A DNA stretch of 64,000 nt from Coriaria nepalensis (lineage: Eukaryota; Streptophyta; Magnoliopsida; Cucurbitales; Coriariaceae), in the NCBI GenBank assembly GCA_027186245.1, contig CP114484.1, forward strand, positions 9,620,001 to 9,684,000, in the 5' to 3' direction. The translations under genes and the position numbers were made by a program. Below the pieces are notes generated by a model, which saw only the letters and a list, made by a program, of their open reading frames with translations, had not been told where the DNA came from and ran no database searches. Positions 23,425-53,054 of the stretch are shown here, piece after piece; within the stretch, counting starts at the first letter, position 1, and every line of letters starts with the position of its first letter.

Positions 23425-23655
23425 ATGGGAAATTTGAAGTGCGTGATCGACATTGTTAAAGTGGTTATCTTAGTGTTCTTTATTTCGAGCATCAGTCCGA
23501 CGCTAGTTCTTGCAGCCAGGCCGATACGAGCCATGAAATCTATGTTGTTAAGTGTAGGGAAGGTGTCTGTAACTATAAATAGAGCTCCCGTAGTTGAACC
23601 TGGGCCGAATCCCTGCACAAACATCCCTAATCATGGAAAAGGACATTGCAATTAG
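23425..23655 (+). CDS. CTNIP/SCREW-type secreted signalling peptide precursor
   Basis: A 76-residue preproprotein. Residues about 1-31 form a signal peptide with a hydrophobic core (VVILVFFISSISPTLVLA), predicted to be cut near ALA/ARP. A short basic propeptide follows, and the C-terminus ends in GPNPCTNIPNHGKGHC plus Asn. The CTNIP block between two cysteines is the hallmark of the CTNIP/SCREW phytocytokines, known to be induced by stress and perceived at the cell surface by the LRR receptor kinase HSL3/NUT to modulate immunity and water loss. A TATA tract lies at 23333-23342, and W-box cores occur further upstream. The gene is intronless and isolated, about 8 kb from its closest canonical relative at 31.3 kb on the same strand. 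Function is inferred from the motif; which family member it is cannot be told. Confidence 0.88.
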   Translation: MGNLKCVIDIVKVVILVFFISSISPTLVLAARPIRAMKSMLLSVGKVSVTINRAPVVEPGPNPCTNIPNHGKGHCN

Positions 23656-31330: not shown

Positions 31331-31552
31331 ATGAACATGAAAAACTTCATATTGTTAGCTATTTTGATTGTGGGTGTCTTGTTAGTTGTTCCAAGATCAT
31401 GTGAAGCAATAAGAGTAGTAATGGATGGAAAGAAATGGGCTAAGAATGAAGAAGGGTTTGGGTTTCAGTCTCTGAGGGGTATCGTTCCGGGAACAGGTCC
31501 GAATCCATGCACTAATATTCCCAGACAAGGCGGTTCCGGCACCTGTAGTTAG
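31331..31552 (+). CDS. CTNIP/SCREW-type secreted signalling peptide precursor
   Basis: A 73-residue intronless preproprotein. The signal peptide is MNMKNFILLAILIVGVLLV and continues to a likely cut after CEA (about residue 26). A charged propeptide and the C-terminal core GPNPCTNIPRQGGSGTC plus Ser follow, with both conserved cysteines. It belongs to the same phytocytokine family as the gene at 23.4 kb and is the canonical copy closest to the variant array that begins 2.2 kb downstream on the opposite strand. A second ATG two codons in (31337) is an equally possible start. The upstream W-box pair, G-box and TATA box suggest stress-induced transcription. Confidence 0.9.
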   Translation: MNMKNFILLAILIVGVLLVVPRSCEAIRVVMDGKKWAKNEEGFGFQSLRGIVPGTGPNPCTNIPRQGGSGTCS

Positions 31553-33752: not shown

Positions 33753-34001
33753 TTAATATGCTTTGGGACGAGAGGTAGCACGGTCAGAAAACTTCATCGG
33801 CGGTGAAGGGATGTTGGTGCCCTGATTAGAGCCATGTTGCGGGACTTGAGAACGGACTGACTCGAGCAACAGTTCTTTGCTCATTACTTTTTCCCCTTCA
33901 TTTCCACCGTTGATCAAGATTCTAGCAGCATCACTCGGATGCTTGGAAATGACAAGAGCAAGGATGGTTATGACAACCAAAAGCATTTTCAGGAACTTCA
34001 T
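33753..34001 (-). CDS. CTNIP-like secreted peptide precursor, cysteine-less variant (copy 1)
   Basis: 82 residues from ATG 34001; an in-frame ATG 17 codons upstream was not used because the sister copies all begin MKFLK. The signal peptide MKFLKMLLVVITILALVIS ends near SDAA. A propeptide ARILINGGNEGEKVMSKELL follows, then the core GSNQGTNIPSP. The core aligns with GPNPCTNIP of canonical CTNIPs, but the first cysteine is Gly and no second cysteine exists. Relative to copy 4 the frame ends early: the codon after SRPKAY is TAA where copy 4 has TCA, removing a 19-20 residue tail. A TATA element lies upstream (34122-34129). Whether it signals through the CTNIP receptor, another receptor, or not at all is unknown. 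Confidence 0.75.
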   Translation of the reverse strand: MKFLKMLLVVITILALVISKHPSDAARILINGGNEGEKVMSKELLLESVRSQVPQHGSNQGTNIPSPPMKFSDRATSRPKAY

Positions 34002-34121
34002 TTTTTGGGGTAAGAACTTTTCTGAACTAGTATATAAGTAAAAATGAAACAATTTATGAATTAGTATATAAAGGTGAAAGGAGAATAGATTGAGGATGAA
34101 ATGGATTAATGCAGATAGGGC

Positions 34122-34129
34122 TATTTATA
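34122..34129 (-). promoter_or_regulatory. TATA box conserved in the peptide array
   Basis: Minus-strand TATAAATA about 120 bases upstream of copy 1. The same octamer occurs at 41636-41643, 44831-44838, 47109-47116 and 53220-53227, each roughly 110-170 bases before its start codon. It lies within conserved sequence that extends to the GAATAGATTGAGG phrase, so the core promoter was duplicated with the gene. Confidence 0.65.
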
Positions 34130-34607
34130 TGTATCGAGGGGGCGACTATAGACTATGGAGGAAACAAAATTCTATGAAATGGAAATTAAAGTTTGAACGT
34201 GCTCTAAACTCTTAATTAATGACTTGAAACGGGGTTAGAAATTACGAAATTAGTACGTGTTATATGAAACGGAGTTTACGCCTTAATGTGCGAATGGGTA
34301 CATGGAAACCTATAATATTGAGTTTTGCATGCATATGGTGATCTGGAATGCAGCTTGGGCTATTTGTATTTGCTTATGTGGATTATGAATGAAGCAACTT
34401 CTATGACTTGGAAAAACATTTGAGGTTTTAAGGACTTGAATAGGTCAAATGCATTTGCATGATTTTTTTTTTCCTCTGAAGTATTCAATTAGTCGGATTC
34501 AAAGTACATCAGTTGGTGAGTCATGAAGACATAATTTCAAAAAATAGAATACTACTTGATTTTGAATTTAGGCTTTGGGAATATGAAGATGAATGGGAAT
34601 AATGTAT

Positions 34608-35240
34608 AGAAATTTGAGCTTCTGTTCCAAAATCAATTAGTTTTGAGAAAAATTGATTAATATTTCTTATATATTAGTTTCTCAAATATTCTCTTTCAGA
34701 TGTATAACATAATATTCTCAACACGCTCCTTTATATATGGAGTTATTTTGAGCCTAAACATAAATATTTCTTATATGAGTAACGTGGAGCACGTGTGATG
34801 GTTAGTTCAATCATGTATTGGGCCCAGCTCTAATACCATATAAAAATTTGGGCTTTCATCTCAAAACCAATTGTCAATGAAAGGAGTTGACCTATATTTT
34901 TTATATATTAGTTTCTCAAATATTCACTTTTAGATGTGAGATATAATACTCTTAATACGTCTCCTCACGTGTGACGTTATTTTGAGCCTATGCATGGATA
35001 TTTTTCATATGTGTGATGTGAAACATATGTGGTGATTACTTTAATCATGTATTGGGTCTAGCTCTGATATCATGTAGAAATTTTAGCTTCCATCTCAATC
35101 AATTGGCTATAAGAGGAGTTGACCCATCTTTCTTATATATTAGTTTCTCAAGTGTTCATTTTCAGATGTGAAATATAATATTTTTAACACACCCCCTCAC
35201 GTATGGTATTATTTTGAGCTTACATGTGGACATTTTTAGA
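34608..35240. repeat. Three tandem copies of a 230-235 bp repeat
   Basis: The phrase TATATTAGTTTCTCAA recurs at about 34669, 34904 and 35135. Each copy also holds a GATGTGAGATATAATA-like phrase, an ACAC/ACGC...CTCACGTGTG-like phrase and TTATTTTGAGC. The copies end in TCTGATATCATGTA-like sequence. This monomer resembles a repeat common in many plant genomes. Divergence between copies is visible, so it is not recent. Confidence 0.8.
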
Positions 35241-36611
35241 AGCGCCTCAACTTGAACTCGCTAGGATGGGTAGCTAGGATGGGTAGTTGGTGGGAGTGAG
35301 TTGGATCGGAAGTTGATGGGGAGTGTTCACAACCATGAGGGGAATTCCCGTTAGACCAACTAGAGGATTAGATCTTTTGGAGGCAAAGCGGCAGCAATGG
35401 TTGCGGCAAGGGCTGAGGCGGAGGTCTCACTTTCTTTTTCAGACAACGACATGGGAGGTCTCTCTTGTTAGAGTGTCATTGTTCTGATACCATACAAAAG
35501 AAAAATACTTGATTATTTATTAATATGAATAAGATTACATCTTATAGAGCTTTATACAATTAATTACTAACAAGTGGATACATAGTATATTTAAGATGTA
35601 AAGAATCTCAAGAGATTAGGAGGATGAGATACATTATGTTATAGCTACCTCAAGCGTTTCATCTTCCTCTAAAAGGTATTTTAAGGAAATAAATAGTTTG
35701 ATTCAAAAAATTTAATATGATATCAGAGTCAAACTCAATAGAAATGGGCATATTCTGTTTCGTAAAGTGTTTCTTATGTATTATATTACTTGTTAGACTC
35801 TCAGAATAACTAGCCTACATATGGGATGAGTGTTAAAATTGTCTCACATCGTTTAGGGAAAAAAATATCTAATTAATTTATAACTAAAGAGTTTATTCTT
35901 CTTCTAAAAATGTATTTTAACAAAAGAAATAATTAGACTCTAAGGACATCATATGCTGAAGCCAAGGTTTGGTTCCTTGAACTCGGACTTTGCATTTCTT
36001 GGGGACTTGGAGTTAATGGGAGCATGCTTGCCTATTACTACATTTATTTAGACATGACATTTGTATTTAAGTTGGATCAGTATGAACTCACAATTCTCAG
36101 TTGTGTTAGTTATGTTAAATATTCTTTTATTGGGTTTTGGTTCACAGTGGATACATCTTAACAGTGGTTTATATATATATATAAAGATGAAATATTAAAA
36201 ATCTTAAAATAATTATTTTTTTTAAATGAGGTATATATGTCATGTCATGAAAAAAATACCACCATAGTCTTTTAACTAGAAAAATTAATCAAAGTGATTA
36301 AAAAGTTCTATCTTCTTAATGCAATACAAAAAAGTTCACCAAAACTAATTTAGAGATGAATTCTTAAAAATAAAATTATACATGAACTAAAATTTGAAAT
36401 AACCTTATTTGTATACACCAATGAGCTTCGCATGTCATTAACATGGCTAAATCTTTAATGGCCCCTTGGCAAGCGTGCAGTGGGTACCAAGTTTGTACTT
36501 GTTGAGAATCCGTAGTGCAAATTGGTATGATCATTAAGTTTAAACAAAATTTAAATAAGAAGGTTGAGGTGACACACCACTTCTTTATTTACCGATTAAA
36601 TAGTTGATGTG

Positions 36612-36619
36612 GATAGTTG
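36612..36619. repeat. hAT target-site duplication, left
   Basis: GATAGTTG directly before the left terminal repeat; it matches GATAATTG at 39931-39938 in seven of eight bases. Confidence 0.8.
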
Positions 36620-39600
36620 TAGAGGTGTCAAAATGGGCTGCCAGGCCAGGGAAAAAAATAGGCCGAGCTGGGCTTGACCCGTTTTTAAAATGTATGTCCG
36701 AGCCCAGCCCGAAAAGCTCTTTGGGTTTATTTCGAGCCCATCCGGCCTTAAAATGGGTCGGGTTCTACCGGGCCTTACCAGGTCTAAAATAGCCCAACCC
36801 TTTTAAATAAAATATTTGTAATAAATTATTATTAAAGTAAGAGATATTATTTGAGATTATGAGTCATAAGAAAATACTCTTGTTAGTTTACTCTACGGTT
36901 CGAATGGGTCAAATAAATTACACATATATGTAACTAAGAGTCTAAGAGCATCTCAAATAAAGAATAAACTTTTGGTCAAATAAAGACTTCATTGTGTATT
37001 ATTAAATAATGGATCCGTAAAAAAAACCTTTCGGCCTTAAGGAGGAAAAACGGACCTTACAATGAAACCATAAACAAAAACAATAATAATAATAAAAGTT
37101 TGCTAATACATTATAATCTATTATCTATCATCTATTTATTAATGGTGATTGGTCATTGGTGGACTGCAGAACTGCTTCCCGTTGCAGAAGGATCTTCATC
37201 TAAGAACATATTATGAAAATATCCAGCCAAGTCTTCATTATGAGTTGTATGTTGACCTTGATGAGATGCATGCTCCTATCTTCAATAACTCTCCCACCTA
37301 TGCTGAATGCTGATTTAGAAGAAACTGTTGAGACGGAAACAATTAAGACATCTCGTGCAAGTTGTGCTAGTATAGGAAATCGTGTAAAGCTTTTCTTCCA
37401 TCAATCCAAAAGGCATAAAGATTCTAAATAATTTGCACAAGAATCAAAAAATGAGAAATCGGTTTCGAGGTATTTCTGGAGCTACATCCCAGTAAAACTA
37501 GAACTGGAATTGGAATTAGAACCGGAACCGGTAATAAAATTCCAACTATTCCTCTTAGGTCGAGTCTCTTGTTCTCATGTTTGTTGCCGCAAGTAGCTGT
37601 ACTTATTATTATAAAGACCAAACACTTCATATAACTTGTTAGTAGCATTATTAATAGCGGAAAAATAATCAACATTTATAGGTTGACTCATAAATGTAAG
37701 AGTATTTGTTAAACCCTGTAATTTAACCCTAGGATCTAATCTAAAAGCAAAAGTATATAAAATATGAATTTCCTTCCAATATTTTTTAAAATTTGAAACT
37801 ATTTTCTGAACAACTGGTTTAAACACTTCATTATTCTCATATATCTGAAACAAGCTAGTTATTTCAACAAGTGAATACAAAACAAGAGGAGATGTAGGAT
37901 AATAAACACCTGAAAGTCGAACAGTAGAATTATAAAATATTTCTAAAAAATATGTAAATTTTTCAGATATATCTTAATCAGAACTATTCAATATAACAGG
38001 AGGATCACAAGAATTAAAAAAAACACTAATTATTTCTTTATGTGGGAGGGCATTTTTCAACATCAAATATGTGGAATTCCATTTTACCGGCATATCAGTT
38101 CCAAATTTTCGAGACTTCATATTGAATGCCCTACAATATTTTTTAAACTTAGCTATCCTAGAATTCGAACTAGTAATCCAAGATAATACCGTACAAATTT
38201 TATCAACACAATTATTTACCTATTGTTCTTTCATACCTGATTTTACAATGAGATTTATGATGTGACACATGCAACATTGATGTAGGAAGACTCCACCATT
38301 ATATTGGATAAGCTATGATTCAAATAAAGAGACGACCCTTGTGTTTGCTGCAGCATTATCCAAAGTTATGGATATTATACGGCTTTTGATATCAAACTCA
38401 CTTAAGACTTCTATTATTAAATCACATATATATTCAATAGTATGTGCTTCATTTATAACTCCATATCCTATTCATTTTTTAATTTAAAATCCATTCTAAA
38501 TCTAAATAATGAATATCAACACATAAATAGTCTTCTTTAGAACATGCATTCCAAATATCATAAGTTAAGGCAAAAGTTAGATTTAAATCACCACATTGTA
38601 ATTTTAATTCATCACGTTTTTTTTTCTAAAATATATCAGATCTAGTAGTATTTCTACTTGTGCTCTTATATTATTGGGTATATGCTCTTCTAATGTGCTC
38701 TTCTTAATAAACACTATCACCAAAATTAATAGGTAAATCAGTAGCAGTAATAAGTCTAACTAGAGATTCTTTAGTAGCCATTGGATCATAAGTTCACATA
38801 CTAATTGTACTATCAATGTTAAAATTCAGTTGAATTTGATTCATATCTGCACTAACTTGAGCCATGCATTTGTCGTTGTAGCGTTTCAAGTGATTAGTTC
38901 TATTATTTGGACCTGCGACCAAAATACTTTTGCAATACTTGTACATTGCATCATCAATGTCTGCACCTTTCTTATTTTTGTGTGGAACTATGTCGAATAT
39001 ATCCTAAATTCCAGATATTCGCTTATTATGTCTCTTTGTAAGCATTGTATTTGCGACAGTAGCAGTATCAGTATTAGATGAATATGATGGTGGTGGTAGA
39101 TTTAGACCACCTAGTAATATATTAGATTGTGCTGGAACTAATCGTATCGGCGGTGAATTTGAACCGATTTTGACATAAATTTTTTGCTCATACTCATTTA
39201 GAGAGTTAAAGTCATATTGATGATGATCCATTTCCTATAAAGAATTTAAGAGTAAATAATTAATCATAAAAAATATAAATATTAAGTAAAAAAGTAAAGT
39301 ATTAAATATTAAGTATAATAATAAATAATAAACAATAACAATAAGTTTAATTACCTTGGACTTTGGTTTAATTTATGGAAAATAGAGGATTAGGGATTAA
39401 GATTAACTAATAAGGATAAGAGAGATAGCAATAAATAAATATAAGAGAGATAACAATGAATAATAATAAGATATTGAGATTAATGATAAGAAAATTAGGG
39501 ATTATGTAAGAATGAAGATTAATTATAATTTATAATATTAGATAAGAGATTGAGAGATAGTATGTGTGTGAGAAAATGTGAGAAAAAATTAGAATGAAAG

Positions 39601-39930
39601 AGTTGATATTTATAGAGAAAATTCGGGTGAGAGAAAATTTAAAAATTATTTATGTCGGGGGGGGGGGGGGGGGGGAGGGGGGGTGTAAAATAAAAAAAAA
39701 TTTACCCGCTCAAATTTTTAAGCGAGTCTCCTACTTTCAAATTTGAAAGCAGCATGTGCGGTAGGCTGAAAAGCTTATTGCACATGCACCCTACACCGCA
39801 AGCTACAGCCTGCGATGTAGGTAGTGAGCTGGGTCGGCTCTCTGAATTTGGAAATTTGTCCAAGTCTGATCCCATATTTAGGTCAGGCTTTGGGCAGGAC
39901 CAAAAAATCTGGCTCATTTTAACATCTCTA
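36620..39930 (-). mobile_element. hAT-superfamily DNA transposon, inactive
   Basis: A 3.3-kb element with terminal inverted repeats. The left end TAGAGGTGTCAAAATGGGCT and the reverse complement of the right end, TAGAGATGTTAAAATGAGCC, agree in 16 of 20 bases. The flanking 8-bp duplication (seven of eight) is the hAT signature. GC-rich subterminal sequence with GGGC/GCCC phrases follows at both ends (about 36635-36800 and 39710-39920). The inside carries a minus-strand transposase with stops. It inserted into the CTNIP-like array: sequence that is continuous in other units (about 45870-46070 and 47610-47790) resumes after the element at about 40000. A run of 19 G at 39657-39675 sits near the right end. 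Confidence 0.9.
37190..39231 (-). pseudogene. hAT transposase, multiply broken
   Basis: Fragments appear in the expected order from 39231 downward. First is an N-terminal stretch beginning MDHHQYDFNSLNEYEQ, then a degenerate BED-type zinc finger near 38840-38960 (KGADIDDAMYKYC...NRTNHLKRYNDKC). A block ITLDNAAANTRVVSLF follows near 38330-38400, then CCMCHIINLIVKSGMKEQ near 38220-38280. A 101-codon open piece with FRLDPRVKLQGL covers 37575-37880. Last, near 37278-37315, is the hAT dimerisation signature SAFSIGGRVIED. In-frame stops and frame changes separate the pieces, so no functional transposase is encoded. Confidence 0.85.
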
Positions 39931-39938
39931 GATAATTG
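39931..39938. repeat. hAT target-site duplication, right
   Basis: GATAATTG directly after the right terminal repeat; partner of 36612-36619 with one mismatch. Confidence 0.8.
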
Positions 39939-41479
39939 CCACTCATCTCACTTTATTCATGTTTTGTCAAAGTCTAGTCTATCTATAACTACATGTACCG
40001 TAGCATCCAAAAAATAGAAAACTTGGAATAATACTTAATAATAAATATCAAGTCACTTTAGTAATTACTAATTAATTTTGAATTAAAATCCAAGACATTA
40101 TGCTATCTGAGTAAATATGATATTAAAATAGAGATTTTAATTTAAATTATGTTGCTTCCTTAATTGTTATTTTCACTTAGCAATATTTTTGACTCTCATT
40201 TCTTATATCAAGAGTTTGTATATGAAAAAATGTTAGCTAATAGTAATTTTAATATAAATTGTTGGACTCTTTATAATCAATTCGAACTCTTAATACTAAT
40301 GATAATTTAATATAATATCAAAATTATATCAATATATAATAAATTAATCACTACATATACTTTATATCTCCCATACAAAAATCCATATGTAGGTTTATTA
40401 TCAGGCTATACGTGTTTCGCCATACCCATTACCAATTCATTTTAAATCGTAAGTTTACACTTTTGTATGACTCTTCAAATTAGTCGGCACTCGTGGACAT
40501 CCCCAGATCATCCAAAAACAAATAATTATAAGCTAAGTCTTTTACATTAGAGCCTCCATACACACAAACTAGTTTTAAATTTTATTTGCTTTTGATAATT
40601 TCATACTATTTTAATAGTTAATCTTGATTTTTATGACATGTTTGATTCAATTATTTAGTCTACTCTTTGATTCAAAGATTGATTAAGTGGGAATGAAAAT
40701 TCATTCTCATCGAAATGAAAAAAATCATTCCCACTTAAATAAAAAAAATCATTCATTCATTCTTATCAAAACGAGTATCTTTAGTGAGAATCATTTTAAC
40801 AATTCATTTACATGAAATATTTTACGTATTTTTTAAATCTTATTATTATACTAGAATAATTTTTAAAATTTCTTAAATCTTAAAATATTATGTTTTTTAT
40901 TCATTTTTCTAATTCTCATTCTCATTTTTTATGTAACAAAAAAGATATAAATAAAATTTATTATTCTCATTCTCCTTTTCTCAGGAAATCAAACCAAACG
41001 TGCCCTTAATCTCTCACAATTTAGTACTTATAGAATTGAAACATTGTTTAGTTAATGCAACTTATATATTAAGTATCCATGTAATTGAAACACTAATTAC
41101 GTGTCATTCTGAATAAGTAAATCGGGTCCTGAACGATAATTTAATGTTGTGTATTATGAGTGAGTTCATAAAATAATCATTTAAGAGGGGAAAAAAAAAA
41201 AACTCAAGCTTAATAAATTTACACAACACGTAATGAAAAATTTATTAGATACAAAATTTAAGAGCGTGATCAAATTCTTATCTAACCCAAATAATTGATT
41301 TTACTATATCCAAATATATATAATAAAACAAGACAAAATCTTAGATAGGTTTTCTTATCGAAAAAATGAATAATCATGCATTTCCATGCATTGCACAAGA
41401 ATTTTTCTCCATATTATATTAACTATTTAAAAATAGCAATATATAATATATAAATTACATGTTCCTTTTTTTAAGTTCA
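39939..41479. other. Continuation of duplicated array flank
   Basis: No gene. About 40000-40110 resembles 45945-46070 and 47700-47790. About 41020-41140 resembles 43850-43980 and 46170-46250 (shared phrase TATTAAGTATCCATGTA). These are flanks of the peptide-gene duplication units. The remainder is AT-rich. Confidence 0.55.
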
Positions 41480-41521
41480 TTATGTTTCAATGACAACCAA
41501 AAGTATATTCAAGAACTTCAT
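41480..41521 (-). pseudogene. Truncated CTNIP-like gene remnant
   Basis: Read on the minus strand, the frame begins MKFLNILLVVI, matching the signal peptide start of the sister genes, then ends after 13 codons (ET, stop) in unrelated AT-rich sequence. The upstream promoter segment with TATAAATA (41636-41643) and the GTAGCGAGG phrase is still recognisable. Everything downstream of the signal peptide, including the peptide core, is gone. Confidence 0.8.
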
Positions 41522-44477
41522 TTTTGTGGGTATGATCGTATAATGTAGATGGAACAATTTATAAATAAGTAGAATGGAACAATTTATGAGTTTGTATATA
41601 AAATGGAACAATATATGGATTAATGCAAATAGGTCTATTTATATGTAGCGAGGGGCTTGCCAGGACTATAGACCATGGAGGAATCAAAATTCTATGAAAG
41701 GGAAATAAGTAATGATTTGAACGGGTCAGAAAGTAAGAAATTTGTACGTGTTTTTTAAAAGGAGTTTTTGCCTTGATGCATAAATGGGTTAATGGAAACA
41801 TATTTCGGATTCACAACAGTAATTTTTGTACCTGGCCGAAGCACTTTAAAACAATCGTTCGATGCATGATATTCTAAAACGTTGATACACAATAAGATAT
41901 TGAGTTTACATCGTTCGATGCATGATATTCTGAAGACGGCTCGCTGTAAGATTGTCCCCGTTCAAAATATAACTCCCCGATTGTGGGTTGAGCCTTTGAC
42001 TTGGACTAGAGTCGTGTCTTGAATATTCCATTTAACAAGTACGGAATGACTTAGAAGGTGTTTGTTTTGTGCCTCACGACATGTTGTCAGATGACCAGTA
42101 ATCATTTTGCTCACTTTGAAACGTCGGGTCTAGGTAATCAAGTTGAAAAAGTGCAGTATATGAGAGGCAAGATGTATTTTCATTAATTTGAAGATTTTTT
42201 TTATAAATATGAGAATTAACCCAAAAAAAAAAAAAGTTCGGTCATATGATTAGCTAATATTTTATAAAACCGACTTTCTAAATAAAAAAGGAACGAATGG
42301 ATATATAAGAGTGGTAATTTGAAAATTTGAGTATTAAAAGGGTTTGAAGTATGGAAGATTATTTTAGTTGAGAAATATATATTTTTTACTGATACATTAG
42401 AAATCATCTTTAATACTATTTATGTTTATTATCCTAGATCAGTCATTCAATATTTATAAAAGATGAGACGGATATAAAACTATTTTTATTTAATATATGT
42501 TTGAGTAATCCATTTTCATTATATATTATTTTAATTCCGAAAGAGAGAAGTGTTGTGTCTGTTCAAAAGCGACGTCACGTACTTGATCTTGGTATTAACA
42601 AAAATGAGAATTTTATGAGTTATGTTGATAATAATGATGAATATTAAAATTAAGGTCTGAATCTGAATGTGAACCGATGTGTTAATTCCGAAATTGAGAT
42701 TGAGGATGATGAAGAAAATGAGGATGAGATAGAAGATGATGAGGATGAGATAGAAGATGATGAGGATGAGAGAGAAGATGAAGACGACAGGTTTAGAAGA
42801 ACGAACGTAGAATATGATAATTATCATAACAATGAAATAATTCTCAAGTTTCATTTCTATGAGAGTGATTTCTTTGATACAGTAGTACTTATATCTGATA
42901 TTTTATCTCTTTCAGATAATACGGTTGCTCCTGATTTTTTACTGCATAATATTCAATAACTGGAAAATGAAGACGGGTGTAGTAATATACTCCCTTTTAC
43001 TTGTTCACAAGGGAGCAAATATGAGTTTTATTGTACTCAGTTCTTTGATTCAAAGAATGATCTAAAGATGCGTCTGTAGATGCATGCGATCTAACAGAAT
43101 TTTGAATTCAAGATAAAGAAGTTAGATAAGACTACATATATAATTGGTTGAGTATATTTAAATTGCAAGTGGATGCTCTGAGCTATATGTAAGAAAGATT
43201 ATCAACTTTTCTAAATTCGTACTTATAATGACCAACATACTTATATTAAAAGAGAGAATGGGAGAAAGAATGAGAACAAAGGAGAGGGGCTAACAAAAAC
43301 AACAAGAAAACGAGCCATAAGAGAAAGGGGAAGGAGATCATTTGTGTGAAACCCTTTAGTGACAAGTGCTAAGATATCACCGAGAGCTTCAATCTGGGGA
43401 GCGAGGAAGGTCGCAAATCGAGGGACGAGTGATATCCGAAAGGGTCAAGACATATACGTTTAAAATCACGCCATACATGAAGGGAAGTAGGGTTGAGCAA
43501 AAAATCTATGGATAGCAGATATCCACAAATACAGAGTGAATAGCGGACGATAAATATTTTCAAAACAAGCAAAACAAAACAAAAAACACATTTTTTTCTT
43601 TTTCCGACTTTTCCTCTCCATTCCCGAAGCTGCTGCTGCCCTTCCCTAAGCTCTCCTCCTCTCCACTCAAGTCTTCCCTTGTCAGCGCCACACAGACTGC
43701 CGGCCGACCACTCCCTCTCGTTATTTCAGTCCCCATATATAAATATATATTTGGAGTCTCATTATAGTCTATAAATAATGAATGGTCGTATAAAATTTAA
43801 GATCAAATTTAACTTCCAACTAGTTTAATAGTTAGTTTTGCCTCTTATCTCTCAATTTAGTACTTGTAGCATTGAAACATTGTTTAAGAAAGGTAACTTA
43901 TATTAAGTATCCATGTAGTTGAAAGATTAATTACTTGTGCATTGTGATTAAGTAACAAGGTCATGATTGATAATTTTGTGCGTATTAAGGAAATTTTTTT
44001 GGATGAACCGTATTTATGGTAAATCGATTTATCTTAACTATATATATAATATTTCTACTATCACAATTCACAATATATATCATATCAACTTTCAACATAA
44101 TTGAAATGAATCATTTTACCATAAACACGACTTCGATAGATATGAGCTCATTATTATCAATATAAAGATTTCATAGAGCCAGGAGGCATGCACGACCAAT
44201 ATCATTATAAGGATTTCATTTTAAGAAAAACGTATAAAAAACAAAACAACTCCCTTTATTCTTATTTTTCGTAACAACTAAGACGTACAGTTCAGTGAAG
44301 AGCAATGGTTAACCACATGAACGAGATCGACTCATTACAAGAACATCATCAGAAAAAAGAAAAAGAAAAAAAAATTGAAGCGTTAATAAATTAAGCTAAT
44401 TATAAGAGTCAACAAATCTTTTAAATCATCCCATTATAATCATATCTCAAATTTGAAAACCTAATCTCTTTAATTTA
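41522..44477. other. Array flanks, AT-rich DNA and an acidic low-complexity frame
   Basis: 41930-42060 is similar to 53700-53830 (shared phrase TCTTGAATATTCCATTT) and marks upstream flanks of two array units. At 42690-42790 a GAGGATGA-type reiteration gives a 96-codon frame (42669-42959) rich in Asp/Glu, without a domain; I do not accept it as a gene. 43600-43740 is a short GC-richer patch without homology. Confidence 0.4.
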
Positions 44478-44723
44478 TTAATTGTAAGCCATGAGTACCC
44501 TAGAAAACTTCCTCGAGCCAATCGGTGAAGGGATATTAGTATCCTGATTAGAGCCGCTGGGCGGGACCTTCGACAGGACTGACTCGAGCAATAGTTCTTT
44601 GCTCATTACTTTTTTTCCCTCGTTTCCACCGTTGATCAAGATTCTAGCAGCATCACAAGGATTCTTGGAAATGACAAGAGCAAGGATGGTCATGACAACC
44701 AAAATCAATTTCAGGAACTTCAT
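44478..44723 (-). CDS. CTNIP-like secreted peptide precursor, cysteine-less variant (copy 2)
   Basis: 81 residues. The signal peptide MKFLKLILVVMTILALVIS and propeptide ARILINGGNEGKKVMSKELL are nearly the same as in copies 1 and 4, followed by the core SGSNQDTNIPSP, in which Asp stands at the first cysteine position. After IGSRKFS it jumps to RVLMAYN. Compared with copy 4 this is an in-frame internal deletion of roughly 55 bases that fuses the two ends of the tail. A cysteine inside the signal region (KNPCDAA) is not the family cysteine. The conserved TATA box lies at 44831-44838. Confidence 0.75.
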   Translation of the reverse strand: MKFLKLILVVMTILALVISKNPCDAARILINGGNEGKKVMSKELLLESVLSKVPPSGSNQDTNIPSPIGSRKFSRVLMAYN

Positions 44724-46670
44724 TTTGGAGGTATGAAGTTATAAATTAAATAGAACAATATTTTATGAATTAGTATATAAAATGGAAGAGAATAGATTGA
44801 GGCGTGATTAAGGATTAATGCAGATAGGGGTATTTATATGTATCGAGGGGGGAGAACTTTAGACTATGGAGGAATCAAAATTCTAAGAAATGGAAATTAA
44901 AATTTGCACACGCTCTGGACTCTTAACTAATGACAACTTGAACGAGTCAGAAATTAAGAAATTGGTAAGTGTTTAAAGAAACTGAGTTTATGCCTTGACG
45001 CATGAATGGGTCTATACATGCATATATTGAATATTGTATGCATATAGTGATCTGGGATTGCAGCTTGTCTGGATTATGAATGAAGCAACTTCTATGACTT
45101 GGAAAAATATTTGAGGTTTTAAGGACTTGAATTGGTCAAATGCATTTGTATGATTTTGTGATTTTTTTCTAGTCCTAAACATTTAATTAGTAAGATTCAA
45201 AAGTAGATCAGTCGTTGAGTCGTGAAGATATATAATATCAAAAAATTGAATACTATTTGGTTGTGAATTTAGGCTTTCGAGAATATGAAAGATAAATGGG
45301 AAAAAGGGAACATCATGTGTTGAAGCCAAGGTTTGGAACCCCTGGACCTCAAACTTAGAATATCTTAGAGACTTGGAGTTGGAGCATCCTTGCCTGTTAC
45401 TGTAGTTATTTAGACCTGACTCATTTGTACAAGGGTCAAGTCAGTATGAAGTTACAATTCTCGGTGTGTTTTGGTTTTGTCAAATATTTTTTCATTTGGT
45501 TTTCGGTAGATGCATCCTGAAATTAGGTGAAGTTGCTAGTTTAGTCTCCATAATAAATTGTTTACAAATAATAACAATATTTAATAAGAGAAAATTTGAG
45601 AAACAAAATAAGGTATAGGAATGAAATATTAAAAAAATTTAAATAATTATTTTTTAATGACGTAATATATTATGTCAACGCAAAAAATATTACGTGAGTC
45701 CCTTTGTCGGAAAAACTTATGGGAGTGACTAAAATATTTCATTAATTTTAACAATCCTAGAGACTAAAAAGTTCATGGAAATTAGTCTATAGATGAATTC
45801 GTAAAACCGGAACTATAACAATGATTAAAAAGAGAATTAACCCTACATGTATTTACAATTGAGCAATGGATGTCATTAATATCGGCTAAATATTTAATAG
45901 CCAATGGGCGGTCAGGCAGCGGGTCAGAAATTTGTACTTATTGAAATACCGTAGTATCAAAAAAATAATATATCTAAAATAATATTTAATAAAAAAGATA
46001 AGTCACTTAAGTAATTGCTAATTAATTTAAATTGAAATCTTAAATTTCCATATGATATTGGAGAAGATAAGATATCATAGAGAAGACATCAATTCAAACA
46101 GCATTGTCTTCCTAATTGTTAATTTCACGTACAATATTTTTAACCCTAACTTCTTATATTAGACGTCTATACGTTATATTAAGTATCCAAATAATTGCAA
46201 CTGTAATTACTTGTGCATTCTGAATAAGTAATCGGGTCATGAACGATAATAAGGAAGAATTTAATATATAGATCTTATTTTAAAATCTAATAAATAAGAA
46301 AATATAATCTATAATTTTTATATTTCTCCGTAATTGCAGCCTGTAACTCGCAAGCACCAAACAATGCATGAGCCATGAGGCATGCACGATCAATATCATT
46401 ATAAAGAATTGATTTTTAAAGAAAAATAAATAAATAACTCCCTTTATTTTTTATTTTCGTAATACGTACAGTTCAGTGAAGAACAATGGTCAATCACATG
46501 CACGAGATTGACTCATTACAAGAACATTAAAAAGAAACATCAAAGACATAATTTGAGGCGTACGTTAGTAAATTAAGGTAGGTATATGTGTTTTATTCTC
46601 CCTTTACTTTCAATCAACAGATAATCTTTTAATCATTTCTCGAATGTGCAAATCTAATCACTTGAATTTC

Positions 46671-46955
46671 TTAATTTTTAGTTACGAGTACTCCAGATGG
46701 AGCCTGGACTTCTGAATACGTTTTGGGACGAGAGGTAGCTTCCTTCAATCTTCTCGGTGAAGGGATGTAGGTGTCCCGATTAGAGCCACTTTGTGGGACA
46801 TCAGACCGGACTGACTCTAATAACAGTTCTTTGCTCATTACTTTATTTCCTTTGTCTCCAACGTTGATCAAGATTCTAGCAGAATCACTAGGATGCTTGG
46901 AAATGACAAGAGCAAGGATGGTTATGACAACCAAAACCAGTTTCAGGAACTTCAT
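46671..46955 (-). CDS. CTNIP-like secreted peptide precursor, cysteine-less variant (copy 3)
   Basis: 94 residues from ATG 46955; twelve extra codons upstream are open but are not shared by sister copies. The signal peptide is MKFLKLVLVVITILALVIS, with propeptide ARILINVGDKGNKVMSKELL. The core is SGSNRDTYIPSP: besides the lost cysteine, the Asn of TNIP is Tyr, making this the most changed core of the array. The long tail, containing TSRPKTYSEVQ and ending SGVLVTKN, is kept, as in copy 4. It lies only 2.2 kb from copy 2, the tightest pair, with the conserved TATA box at 47109-47116. Confidence 0.72.
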   Translation of the reverse strand: MKFLKLVLVVITILALVISKHPSDSARILINVGDKGNKVMSKELLLESVRSDVPQSGSNRDTYIPSPRRLKEATSRPKTYSEVQAPSGVLVTKN

Positions 46956-47119
46956 TTTTGTGGGTATGAACATATAAATGAAATGGAACAATCTATGAAT
47001 TAGTATAAACTATAAATATATAAGTAATAATGGAACAATTTCTGAACAATTATATAAAAGTGAAAGGAGAATAGATTGAGGCATGAAATAGATTAATGCA
47101 GATATGGCTATTTATATTT

Positions 47120-48159
47120 GCTTGTGTCAGTGTGAATGAAGCAACTTCTATGACTTGGAAAAATATTTGAGGTTTTAAGGACTTGAATAGGTCAAATGTA
47201 AAAAAAAAAAAAAAAGTATGATTTTCTGATTTTTTTTTTCTTTTTTTTTTCCCTTCTAGTCCTAAAGTGCTTAATTAGTCTGATTCAAAAGTAGAGTCAG
47301 TGAGTCATGAAGACAATAATTTCAAAAAAAAAAAAAATGCCGAAGTTTGGTTCCTTAATCCAAGACTTTGCATTTCATTGAGATTTGGAGTTGGCGCATT
47401 CTTGGGTGTTACTGCATTTATTTAGACCTGATTTAGTTATATTCGAGTTAGGTCTATGTGAATCTACAATTCTAAGTGAGATTTAGCTCTGTTAAATATT
47501 TATTCATTAGGATTTGGTCGACAGTAGATCCATCCTGAAATTAGGAGATATTGTTAGATTAGTTTCCATATATTGTTTATAGAAATTAGTTTTCAAGCGA
47601 TATAATTATATTGGATGTCGTTAATATGGACTAAATCTTAAACGACCAATGGGTGGGCGAGCGACAGGGAAGGTCTCAAGTTTATACTTATTAAGAACCA
47701 TCGTAGTATCCAAAAAATAAGACCTGAAATAACACTTTAGTAACTGTCAATTAATTTTGAATCAAAATCCTATATTTTCATATAGTATTAGAGTAGATAT
47801 GTGTTGATGCTCAGATTTTGGTGCAACCATATCCAGGAACTAGTAATATGTCCGCTAGTTCAAGAAATCCTCTTATATACATAAAATAAGTATGATTCAA
47901 GTTTACATTCGGCGCAACTCTTTTGATGGTTAAATTAGCTAAAAAAAATTTCTCAGACACTTGATGAACGGTACATATTTTTCTTAGTGTCAAAAAGTAT
48001 GTAATCTTTACTAGGATCAGGGTTTTGTTACTTATAATACTTCACTAAAGATGAAGATCTTATTTACTTTACACATAACACATTCCCAATAGTGGTGCAT
48101 ATTGACATCCTTAGTGCTTCATTCACTCTGTCCATTGACACAAATATAAATTTTCTCCC
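47120..48159. other. Upstream flank of array copy 3
   Basis: Shares GAAGCAACTTCTATGACTTG and later phrases with the flanks of copies 1 and 2. It holds A and T homopolymers near 47200-47250 and 47325-47337. No gene seen. Confidence 0.5.
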
Positions 48160-51100
48160 CACTACCTATGTTAGATGAGCCTCCTTATCCTTCCGTAGTA
48201 CTGCCTCGAATAGTTAGTTTGGCGTCCCACTCTTGGAGTCCCTATTTTCATGATCCATACCAATTTATCCAAACATGTCATTGTGACCATGGCCGACCCC
48301 TAACCAACACTAACTCTTGCCCGGTCCGATTGCTTGAGTCAATCTCCATGTTTCTCAAGTGGCTTACTAGTGAGTTCGAGGTGGGCCCTCTTCACTTCAA
48401 CCTAGCCCGACCAAAGCCAATTGCTCCTCACAGAGCTCGGTTAGCTCATAACGAGATTCCTCTCCCCTCCCCCCCCCCCCCCCCCCAACAGTTAGTCCCT
48501 TATCATTTTGGTAGTTCGGCATGCTAGATCAACCTCACCTGATTACTGTGCATGGTGTACATGTCCTCCTCTCATGGCAACTGCTCCATAAGCCCGATCG
48601 CATCACGTCTTTTCACATTCCTCTCACTTGTTTAATGCTCTCGTTTATCTTCCCAATGACCTCTCTCTTTACCACGTGTTGTGGGTTCATTGGGGGACCT
48701 AGTGAATATTTAAACCCTTTGTTTCCCTTCTTCTTCATTTTACCTATTTTCGCCATTGTTGGATTCTTTGAAGTTTTCATACTCCCTCTCTCCCGTTTCT
48801 GAAATCTAGCCAAACACCTTGCACCCGAACCATTTTCTCGTATCTCGTGTTCTCCGCTACTTATTCTCACTTCGTCGGGTCTCTCTTAAGCAAAACAAGT
48901 TTTTCTCATAGATTTCTCTTTGCCATTACTATTATTTGTGTTCTAGGTGTTTTCCTTCGCGCCCTTTCAGTTTTTTAAAAAATCAGACCTTATAATTTGA
49001 AATTTTATGGTTTCAACACTATGCCAAGTGTTTATGGGTTTGCTCATTTTCTTTTATAGGGTATTCATACTTAGAAAAAATTACTATGTATAAACCATTA
49101 GTTCTGAGACACAAGTACCTAGGATTGACCTCTCTAAGAGTGAGTGTAGCTTTCCTGACCGTGCCAACCAACATTTTACTGTTGAACCGAATTTCACTTT
49201 TCATTTTCTCCAACTTAGTTCTTCTTTATTGACCTATCTTGTGAAATCAGAGTACTGAGTTTACCATTATATCAATTAATTTGTTTAGACTTCTACGTCC
49301 CAATAACTAAGAATGGATTTTGAAGAAACCAATCAGAGCCGACCTAGGAAGTCTAGTGAGGGATGTAGGAAACCTGCTAGGAGGCTCCGAAAATGCACTG
49401 AAACTAACTTAAGATGATATAGACTATCTTTCCACTTTCGATGATCTCTCAGATGATGTTACTCTAAGATTACCTCGAGAGGAAGAAAGCATGTTCGACG
49501 TAGGGAAAGAGAATGAGAATGAAATTATAATGTATAGAGAATTGTTCAATGCGGGACTTAAAATTCCCCATCCTCCCTTTTTTCTAAAACTAGCTCGGCA
49601 CCTGGGGCATTCCTTTTGGTTAGCTCAAACCTAACTCTTCAAGATTTTTTCTCGGGTTGTTCATTCTATGGAGAGAAGCTACAGATGAAGAACTCAACCT
49701 CCAACACTTCATCAATGCTTTTCGGCCAAGTATGATGGCAGAGTATGTTCTGCATCTCTCATTTTGACAGTAGCCAGGTGAAAGTCTTCTCAGACTCCAA
49801 CAAAAAGTGGGCAAACAGGTGGTTAATATTGGTCGGACACTGGCGCGCCTCCCCTTATGAATTTCTTAGAGTGAAGCCTCTTCAATCCTTTCAATCGAAC
49901 AGAAAGTAAGCACCTTCCCCTCATATTTAGCCTTTCCTTCTCTTCATCTCATTTTCATCCTCTCATAGTTATATTTACCTATAAGTATCAACCCTCTTCA
50001 AATTAAACTCTCAGATGAGGAGCTGAGAATCTTGGACATTCTCGACATGGTGTCTATACAGAAAGAGACTACAAAATTCTTTTAATCCCTGAACCGCTGA
50101 AGGAGTGTGGTTTGATTCTTACTCTCTCTCTGGAAGTTACTCCCATTTAAACCAACTTTGAGGAGGAGTTTTGTTATGTAGAAGAGGGTATTGATTTTCC
50201 TTATCTTAACACTTAGGCTTTATTTTCACAAAATTCTAGGTTCATTGAACTTTCCTGATGTCTTTCTTTCCTATTTGTAGGTATGAGCAATAAGATTATG
50301 GAAGAAGTGTTAACTAAGTCTCATGCTGACCGGCTATAGGAAAAAGTTGATTGGCTGAGCATGATGCAACTCGAAGGAGTCAGGGCACTTCCAATAAAAA
50401 ATGTAAGAACTTCTGCAGAGCCGAGCCTAGAGAAGGGTTTTATGCTACCCCGACCTATACGTGTAACTCATGTCCGGACTTCGACTTCAATAGGGGTTCC
50501 CCCGTCCTCCACGTCACCCACCCATTGGTGTGGCTAGGATCTGCCCTACCTAGTTGGATCGGATTTCCTCAAGCTGACAAGAAGGGATGGGGAAAATTCG
50601 GTGGTCGTCCCCCAAGTCACGAGTTCTTCTTTGAAGGAGCTCTCTAAGAAGCTCCCCGAACTAGTCTCTTCTCAAAACCTATCTCTTCTTCCTCAGCTCA
50701 AAGTCTCGGACCTTATGGAGAAAAGTTTCTATGAATTACTAAAGGTGAACTACTTCCCTTTTTTTTTAAGTGTGTTTCTCACTTTTACCACTTTCATTTG
50801 CAGCTAGTCATAGCCATTCTCCGCTAGGCCTTTCTTCTTTTTTTGTTGATCCAGAGGAAGTTTCCCAACTCCAAAAGGAGATTGAGAACCATGAGGCTCT
50901 TGTTGCCTCAGCTCAGAAATAAGTAGCTGAAGTGACCTCTAAAAAGAGGGCTTTTGAAAAAAAGTACCGAGTCGAGCTGGAGGCTAAGAATCAAAAGCAC
51001 GGGCTAAGGAAAAGTGTTAAGGTTGAGTTGATCAAGTTAAAGGCTGACCTCTCTGAACTAAGGCAGGAGGCCATATCCGAGTTTAAAGAATCTTCTAAAT

Positions 51101-51480
51101 ACAAGAAGGAGATCTTTGACAATATAAAGGAGGGGTTCATCTGGACCCGAGTTATCCTCAACATGGTCAGGTCGAACTTGGATGCCAACTCCTCAAGTTT
51201 CTAGTAGATCCATCCATTCCTCTGGAAGTCCCAATGGTTGAGGCCTGGGAAGAAGATGAGGGAGATGGTGATGAAGTCAAGATCATCGAGGAGGCTCCTG
51301 AGGAGCGAGACCATGTCGTGCCTTAAGAGCATGCTGAAGAGATGGAAATGATCAGATCGGGACTGAGCTGACCTCTCTTGCAAAAGGAGAAGACCCTCAT
51401 TGATCTTAAATATTTTTATCTTTGTACTACGGACTATTTGTCTCATTTATCTCTTTTATTTTTTATTTCGATGTAACAAC
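48160..51480 (+). mobile_element. Degraded gypsy-type (PF04195-like) element
   Basis: Plus-strand fragments recall the 'putative gypsy-type transposon' proteins common in plants. One piece, about 49540-49605, reads MYRELFNAGLKIPHPPFFLK followed by LARHLG. Around 49670-49900 further pieces occur in shifting frames. At 50932-51204 lies a charged coiled-coil stretch ending EAISEFKESSKYKKEIFDNI and GFIWTRVILNMVRSNLD, a typical C-terminus of such proteins. Stops and frame changes are frequent, and an 18-C run lies at 48469-48486. No LTRs were recognised. It sits between array copies 3 and 4, so it probably inserted after the duplication. Confidence 0.6.
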
Positions 51481-51596
51481 TTAAAACATTTCTTTTTTTT
51501 TTAATGAATGATTTCCTTTTCCTCTATATCTTGCCTTATTCTTTTATCATTTTCTTATGGTAGGTGTCTAAGTTTAAATCGGCACCTTAAGTTGAA

Positions 51597-52090
51597 AAAC
51601 TTTGGTGTTGTTTACACCCAGACTAAAAGACCTTGTAGAAACACTTGACCTTATAGATCTAGGCTGATGACATGTGGGTTGATCAGCCTCTAGCCAAATA
51701 GGGAGCGGAACACTACTCAGACTTTGAATTTTCCTTACAATATTTTGACTTTGTAAGTCTAGGTTGATGACACGTGGGTCGATCAATCCCTGGCTAAGAA
51801 AGGCATATAGCACTACTCAGACTTTGAACATTCCTCAGAAAATTTTGACCTCATTGGTCTAAGCTGATGACATGCAAGTCGATCAGCCCTTGGCCGAGAA
51901 AGGCATGCAACATCGCTTGGACTTTATATTTTTCTTAGAAAGGTTTAGCTCTGGGGTCTAGACAGATGACACATGGGTCGATCTGTCCTTGGGCGAGCAT
52001 TGCTCGAATTTTAAATTTTTCTTAGAAAATTTTCGACCTTATGGGTCTGAGCTGATGACACGTAGGTCGATCAACCCTTGGCCAAACACA
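51597..52090 (+). repeat. Five tandem copies of a 90-100 bp repeat
   Basis: The phrase GCTGATGACA and its variants recur at about 51663, 51763, 51863, 51962 and 52051. Each copy continues CRYGTGGGTCGATCA-like and CTTGGCCGAGAAAGGCA-like, then ACTCAGACTTT. It lies just downstream of the gypsy-type remnant, and such non-coding tandem repeats are known near the 3' ends of some plant gypsy lineages. Confidence 0.85.
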
Positions 52091-52754
52091 AACTTTTTTT
52101 ATAAATTCACTTTATTAACTTTGGCTTCATAAGAGCCTTCTGGAAATTAAACATTGTAGAAGGAACAATACAATACTTCATCTCTGAACACGATTTTCTC
52201 TTTCATCTCATCTTAATGTGGCCATTCTCCTCCATCTTATGGTATACTTTTGAGTGTTCAGAATTCCATGAGTGTGGCATCATCCTTCCAGCCTTGTTTT
52301 GGAGTCAATAAGTTCCAGGTTTGACTTCTTCCACTACCGGTTTGCTCAACTTGGGTATGTCTCCCAAATAGATGACATAATTTTATTTATTTAATTAAAA
52401 TATTATTTTTAAAATATGATCTATACTTCGGCCAAAAAAAAAATATTCATACAAGAATTTCGCCTGCAACTCGCAAGTACCAAACAATGATGAACAGGCA
52501 ATTTCAAATGATCGATATCATTATAAGGTATTTTCAAAGAAAATAAATAAATATATAACTCCCTTTATTTTAAATTTTCGAAACATACAATTCAGTGAAC
52601 AGCAATGATCAACCGCATGCACGAGATTGACTCATTACAGGAACATTAAAAAAATAAAAACACAATCAAAGCAAAGATTTGAGGCGTTAATAAATTAAGC
52701 TAGGTACATGTGTTAATCATTGCACGAATCGGCAACTCTAATCATATCAATTTA

Positions 52755-53054
52755 TTAATTGTTAGCTACGAGTACTCCAGATGAAGCCTTGACTTCTGAA
52801 TATGCTTTGGGACGAGAGGTAGCACGACCAGAAAACTTCCTCGAGCCGATCGGTGAAGGGATGTTGGTGCCCGGATTAGAGCCAGGTTGCGGAACATCAG
52901 AACGGACTGACTCGAGCAGCAGTTCTTTGCTCATTACTTTTTTCCCTTCATAATTTCCACCGTTGATCAAGATTCTAGCTGCGTCACTAGGATGCTTGGA
53001 AATGACAAGAGCAAGGATGGTTATGACAACCAAAAGCATTTTCAGGAACTTCAT
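52755..53054 (-). CDS. CTNIP-like secreted peptide precursor, cysteine-less variant (copy 4)
   Basis: 99 residues, the longest and most complete copy. The signal peptide MKFLKMLLVVITILALVIS is cut near SDAA. Propeptide ARILINGGNYEGKKVMSKEL runs to LESVRSDVPQ, followed by the core PGSNPGTNIPSPIGSRKFSG, closest of the array to the canonical GPNPCTNIP but with Gly for Cys. A tail with TSRPKAYSEVK, ending SGVLVANN, follows. No cysteine remains in the mature part. Its upstream region keeps the shared promoter (TATA at 53220-53227). I use it as the reference for judging lesions in the other copies. Confidence 0.78.
   Translation of the reverse strand: MKFLKMLLVVITILALVISKHPSDAARILINGGNYEGKKVMSKELLLESVRSDVPQPGSNPGTNIPSPIGSRKFSGRATSRPKAYSEVKASSGVLVANN

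Follow-up and report, generated by a model that had tools for sequence, protein, structure and literature searches.

The window analysed here is the whole stretch of 64,000 nucleotides from Coriaria nepalensis (contig CP114484.1, positions 9,620,001 to 9,684,000 of assembly GCA_027186245.1), which has a G+C content of 34% and which we take to be plant nuclear DNA. Between ~33.7 and 53.1 kb of the window, on the minus strand, there is a tandem array of four open reading frames (ORFs), named copies A to D, and a remnant, R, which are related to the precursors of CTNIP/SCREW peptides. The description of SCREW and NUT is reportedly that of Liu et al. 2022. CTNIP/SCREW peptides are ligands of HSL3/NUT (Rhodes et al. 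2022 eLife, PMC9191895) and carry two cysteines which are required for binding (PMC12907539). The four copies, each placed by its ORF and by alignment, are:

33753 to 34001, minus strand: copy A, a cysteine-free CTNIP-related precursor of 82 residues with the core GSNQGTNIPSP.
44478 to 44723, minus strand: copy B, 81 residues, core GSNQDTNIPSP, with a 51-nucleotide in-frame gap in its tail.
46671 to 46955, minus strand: copy C, 94 residues counted from the aligned ATG, core GSNRDTYIPSP.
52755 to 53054, minus strand: copy D, 99 residues, core GSNPGTNIPSP, with the longest tail and the best match to the tails of relatives in Camellia and Bertholletia.

An earlier, first-pass annotation of the window had described four minus-strand genes and a remnant here, and all of the ORFs were found in place and on that strand. 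The copies share one layout, in which a hydrophobic start (MKFLK...) is followed by a propeptide (RILIN...VMSKELLLESV), a core of the form GSNx(G/D)T(N/Y)IPSP and a C-terminal tail. The codon at the position of the first CTNIP cysteine (cysteine 1) is GGC in A and D, GAT in B and GAC in C, and no cysteine follows this position in any of the four copies, which agrees with the annotated replacement of cysteine 1 by Gly or Asp and the absence of cysteine 2. The sole cysteine of copy B is residue 23, in the signal-peptide region. The annotated TNIPSP is present in A, B and D, but C reads TYIPSP. The prepro-region, which had been called almost invariant, is conserved but not invariant, with 12 of its 54 columns varying among the copies, as do 5 of 14 in the core. 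Given the 79–91% identity of A, B and C to D and the matching flanks, the array cannot have arisen by chance. The array proteins are likely secreted, judging from their strongly hydrophobic N-termini (highest 12-residue mean hydropathy 3.38–3.57, near the N-terminus).

The copies also differ in where they begin and end. The tail of A is ended early by TAA, at a codon which is TCA in C and D, and the tail of C has the same end point as that of D with a 12-nucleotide in-frame gap. As a listed ORF, copy C spans 46671–46973 (100 residues) by way of an in-frame ATG six codons upstream; this alternative start (46956–46973) gives MFIPTKMKFLK, and remnant R likewise has PTK preceding its ATG.

Two canonical two-cysteine CTNIP genes, identified by ORF and motif, lie within 30 kb of the array, as had been annotated:

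23425 to 23655, plus strand: second canonical two-cysteine CTNIP gene, 76 residues, GPNPCTNIPNHGKGHCN.
31331 to 31552, plus strand: canonical two-cysteine CTNIP gene, 73 residues, GPNPCTNIPRQGGSGTCS, 2.2 kb from copy A.

Profile and shuffle comparisons show that the array genes are homologous to CTNIPs. A profile of the array matched a profile of canonical CTNIPs (hhalign: 95.7%, E = 9.4e−9). None of 2000 shuffles reached the score of copy D against either canonical gene of the window, and against the 31331 gene the same was true of A and B (0/2000 each), with C at 4/2000. Matches to the 23425 gene were weaker (A 13/2000, B 136/2000 and C 89/2000). When A to D were compared with six relatives, D exceeded all 2000 shuffles in six of six cases, and B was weak against the Bertholletia protein introduced below (359/2000). 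A profile built from copies A to D together with the window's two canonical genes (A1) matched the PDB chains 9w1s_C (E = 1.7e−4) and 9wum_B (E = 0.0093), which is indirect for the array since the profile includes canonical genes; a profile of cysteine-free proteins from Ericales (A7) matched 9w1s_C at E = 0.012. Both chains are named only “Transmembrane protein” and contain NGCTNIPRG, from which we infer that both are CTNIPs, whose structures perhaps include the receptor; a literature search for 9W1S or 9WUM found no paper naming either. Copy D alone matched no PDB chain at E ≤ 10, and in the protein database it gave 3 candidates with none at E ≤ 1. In Pfam the array proteins matched no family but Moricin, which was rejected, as scores were below the cut-off of 27.6 bits in all copies (A 17.9, B 19.4, C 20.1 and D 14) and the match covered residues 3–44 (A, B and C) or 3–32 (D), mostly the hydrophobic start.

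Cysteine-free CTNIP relatives are predicted to extend beyond the local array, to Camellia and Bertholletia. Profile A1 was searched against a protein database which included plants, which yielded 3483 candidates, nine of them at E ≤ 1. Eight of these were two-cysteine CTNIPs ending 1–3 residues past cysteine 2, and the ninth was ACSBR2_021038 (P0004) from Camellia fascicularis. A search with trimmed array sequences and pieces of P0004 returned 3 of 16 candidates: P0004 itself, ACSBR2_021016 (P0010) from the same species, with a locus number 22 apart and presumably on the same contig (169,506,018 bases long in both cases), and NMG60_11014092 (P0011) from Bertholletia excelsa. The scores of P0004 and P0010 are inflated by the P0004 pieces in the query; P0011 (E = 2e−7) was absent from it. 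Camellia belongs to the Theaceae and Bertholletia to the Lecythidaceae, both within the Ericales; as the search requires shared exact words and may miss relatives beyond this order, we do not claim that they are confined to it. The Ericales cysteine-free profile matched both the array profile (E = 4.3e−9) and the canonical CTNIP profile (E = 1.9e−13).

In P0011, a full precursor, PSPNPGTYIPSS is followed by the tail GFVGHAMPPP...VPFGVAK, and the only cysteine of the protein, residue 26, lies where the signal-peptide region ends. P0010 contains no cysteine and P0004 contains one, in its first repeat, where cysteine 1 is kept without cysteine 2. The cysteine-1 site reads GTYIP in P0011 and in the second repeats of P0004 and P0010, and Pro occupies this site in the first repeat of P0010. 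P0004 and P0010 each consist of two tandem CTNIP-like repeats in one ORF, so one precursor could yield two peptides.

A C-terminal tail is found in the array and in the Ericales relatives, where its consensus is FxGHAxPPPxxPxxxVPFGVAK, and is lacking in the ten canonical CTNIPs examined (2 from the window and 8 from the database), all of which end 1–3 residues past cysteine 2. The first-pass annotation makes no mention of this tail. The Bertholletia and Camellia tails are clearly homologous (0/3000 shuffles for two pairs); between Bertholletia and the Camellia repeats, 18/34, 16/34 and 13/20 aligned residues are conserved in the tail, and in the core the counts are 12/18, 13/18 and 11/18. The tails of A, C and D were compared with a profile of the Ericales tail, that of B being mostly missing, and matches were found for D (1/3000) and C (15/3000). 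Pairwise, the D tail matched P0011 (19/3000) and P0004 (11/3000), and the C tail matched P0004 (31/3000). We had considered the Phe of RKF as the former cysteine 2, its spacing from the cysteine-1 position in B and D being equal to the Cys–Cys spacing of the 31331 gene and TTT being one step from TGT; this idea was dropped because the Ericales relatives align that Phe with the F of FxGHA. No frameshift fossil of the tail was recognisable by eye in other frames downstream of the window's canonical genes.

We then asked how the copies have been constrained, using ratios of non-synonymous to synonymous substitution (dN/dS) from NG86 counts pooled over the six pairs of A to D. The ratio was 0.32 for the prepro-region, 0.48 for the core and 0.35 for the whole from ATG to TNIPSP, where the lowest pairwise value was 0.24 (B–D). 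In neutral simulations with three hand-chosen sets of branch lengths, bracketing the distances of flanks and coding sequence, the pooled value of 0.35 was attained in 5, 1 and 30 of 5000 runs (neutral median 0.83–0.85) and all four ORFs were open in 248, 128 and 708 of 5000. All four gap runs in the coding sequence are multiples of three (3, 6, 12 and 51 nucleotides; P ~0.012 at a one-in-three chance each), compared with 11 of 33 in the flanks (7/21 upstream and 4/12 downstream). Purifying selection therefore acts on the frame between ATG and TNIPSP, and neutral decay of the array copies is disfavoured; the array tail shows no clear constraint and is relaxed. Since no copy keeps either cysteine, by parsimony the loss is older than the duplications, and the constraint seen among the copies is therefore younger than the loss, which is the main argument against decay. 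Diversifying selection on the core was considered and rejected: its 14 of 68 codons hold 25.5 of 76.5 nonsynonymous differences, an excess which was not significant by permutation (2003/20000).

The first-pass annotation had named a dN/dS near 1 and a lack of orthologues as marks of decaying copies. The ratio up to TNIPSP is 0.35, and cysteine-free relatives, which may be orthologues, were found elsewhere. Its proposal of a new sub-family stands in so far as the group is CTNIP-related, lacks the cysteines and evolves under purifying selection, but not as regards a purely local group, given the predicted relatives in Camellia and Bertholletia.

Flanking sequence is common to the units over several hundred bases, with BLAST pieces 72–98% identical (the main ones 80–90%), which indicates tandem segmental duplication. 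Alignment placed two further features:

41490 to 42051, minus strand: remnant unit R, comprising the upstream region with a TATA-like box and no more of the coding sequence than its first ~11 codons (ATG at 41521).
34002 to 34600, minus strand: upstream region of copy A, partly common to the other units, with TATAAATA at −128 and a W-box-like TTGACC at −447.

The coding part of R runs from 41521 to 41490, beyond which homology breaks, and its upstream homology reaches ~42051. A TATA-like box lies 115–173 nucleotides upstream of the ATG in A, B, C and D. Within 700 nucleotides upstream, TTGACC is present in A, B and C and not in D, and in R it occurs once, on the reverse strand. These elements are compatible with stress-inducible expression, of which they are only suggestive and not evidence. 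A 95-bp block containing TTGACC lies upstream of A, B and C (34372–34466, 45063–45157 and 47119–47213) and is not listed for D; A and B are 95% identical over it and C is 75% identical ungapped. A and B also share a longer upstream match of 819 bases (81% identical). Two tandem repeats were seen: 34598–35237, ~600 bp upstream of A, with three ~233-bp units (141-nucleotide parts 73–79% alike), and 51645–51944, within the array region, with three 100-bp units (69–74% alike to the first). Short ORFs at 37974–39231 on the minus strand may be pieces of a hAT-type transposase, which they resemble. Genes around the array region include a cytochrome P450, a plant-type bHLH-MYC transcription factor and a C2H2 zinc-finger gene.

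On balance we favour, with some reserve, the explanation that the array is a maintained, cysteine-free branch related to CTNIP/SCREW. Its precursors would be secreted and its peptides released in linear form around the GSNxxTNIPSP core, and these would signal through a re-tuned, disulfide-independent contact with an HSL3-type receptor, the receptor step being the weakest. The probable route is that a paralogue lost cysteine 2 and gained the C-terminal tail where its stop had been; cysteine 1, now without a partner, would then have been free to change, and the Camellia repeat with cysteine 1 but without cysteine 2 would be an intermediate. In the pairs tested, CTNIPs are recognised in a species-specific way (PMC9191895), which suggests that the receptor contact can change. 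A linear CTNIP branch spanning several plant families, which dropped the disulfide, acquired a new tail and has its own co-evolved receptor, is a possible but tentative extension.

A number of results weigh against the maintained-branch explanation. Mutation of both cysteines abolishes the activity of CTNIP4, and in CTNIP4 C58S/C68S both binding of the HSL3 ectodomain and recruitment of BAK1 are lost (PMC9191895); the array peptides should therefore not be ordinary CTNIP agonists. P0004, P0010 and P0011 are putative proteins from gene predictions, and the Camellia models have no signal peptide. The copy A tail did not match the Ericales tail profile (2189/3000), nor did the D tail match P0010 alone (346/3000), and the C tail was unclear against P0011 (96/3000). 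In a tree built from 57 columns, with the cysteine-1 column and the tail left out, the cysteine-free rows did not group (a single change sufficed in 6% of 200 bootstrap trees), and forcing nine rows together, among them the Camellia repeat which bears cysteine 1, cost 4.95 log units (p-AU 0.089). These columns do not suffice to place the array, which fell together with Bertholletia, Camellia, the 31331 gene and the sequences P0001 and P0006 in a poorly resolved group; the tree neither shows nor rejects a single clade of cysteine-free sequences, and separate losses are possible. No greater conservation could be measured in the core (0.48) than in the prepro-region (permutation P 0.10 for less conserved), and 3/21 upstream and 1/12 downstream flanking gap runs touch the examined edge, so that their lengths are cut. 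The remaining contrary points, namely a pooled dN/dS of 0.83 in the array tail, its stop in A and 51-nucleotide gap in B, and the highest pairwise ratio up to TNIPSP (0.68, A–C, with TYIP in C), also favour the explanation that these are relaxed or decaying duplicates, former CTNIP genes which no longer signal, are drifting, and are open through youth or residual constraint. In its favour too are remnant R, which is proof that units die, the position of the array among repeats, and the inactivity of synthetic CTNIP5, a divergent Arabidopsis member (PMC9191895). However, the low ratio up to TNIPSP is rare under neutrality, the coding gaps are all in frame, and cysteine-free relatives are conserved between Bertholletia and Camellia, and we regard decay as unlikely.

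Two further explanations seem to us more improbable still, and about equally so. The array peptides might dampen the response by competing with their two canonical neighbours for HSL3 or BAK1, as they share the core without exactly the residues that activity needs and lie 2–30 kb from the canonical genes. The binding lost in the CTNIP4 double mutant makes passive competition unlikely, as any simple competitor would have to bind through contacts of a new kind; the antagonist role raised by the first-pass annotation is therefore disfavoured where it means simple occupancy of HSL3 (PMC9191895). Alternatively, the tail itself could be the active unit, with the CTNIP core now no more than a piece of the propeptide. 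The tail is well conserved between Bertholletia and the Camellia repeats, but in the array no other part is as weakly constrained, and two of the four copies carry a shortened tail.

As CTNIP4 loses both its activity and its receptor binding when the two cysteines are mutated, a cysteine-free branch, if conserved, would be a natural experiment in how the contact between a peptide hormone and its leucine-rich repeat receptor changes. In the published family survey, only candidates with two cysteines spaced 9–11 residues apart entered the “confident” set, and the tree was built on a “relaxed” set (PMC9191895). The confident set would filter out such genes by design, and the relaxed set might hold some. 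No description of a cysteine-free CTNIP branch was found in the CTNIP literature examined, in excerpt, although the supplementary relaxed set of PMC9191895 may include members. What is new here is the predicted occurrence of tail-bearing, cysteine-free CTNIP relatives in Camellia fascicularis (two genes) and Bertholletia excelsa.

Compared with known systems, the array would share with PIP, CEP, IDA and CLE the character of short, proline-containing secreted signalling peptides; no match to these families turned up, and no search aimed at them was made. CTNIPs have been placed with PIP, CEP, IDA and CLE by a core PSGP sequence (PMC11331138) and also described as unrelated in sequence to IDA, CEP and PIP (PMC12907539). 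CTNIP5, compared by description only, is like the array a divergent CTNIP paralogue. P0004, P0010 and P0011 resemble the array in their cysteine-free core, similar propeptide and a tail like that of D and C, whereas the Camellia ORFs have two repeats and no annotated signal peptide, and the first repeat of P0004 keeps cysteine 1. With CTNIP/SCREW the array has in common a short precursor, a hydrophobic N-terminus, a serine-hydrophobic-arginine stretch before the core, the core G(S/P)N..TNIP, several paralogues side by side in the window and detectable profile homology. It differs in lacking cysteines 1 and 2, in having GSN for GPN and in its extra C-terminal tail. None of the four copies has two cysteines spaced 9–11 residues apart, and of the canonical GPNxCTNIP the array keeps G, N, T, I and P, with Ser for Pro, Gly or Asp for Cys and, in C, Tyr for the Asn of TNIP. 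The array is thus a related variant which lies outside the strict definition of a CTNIP.

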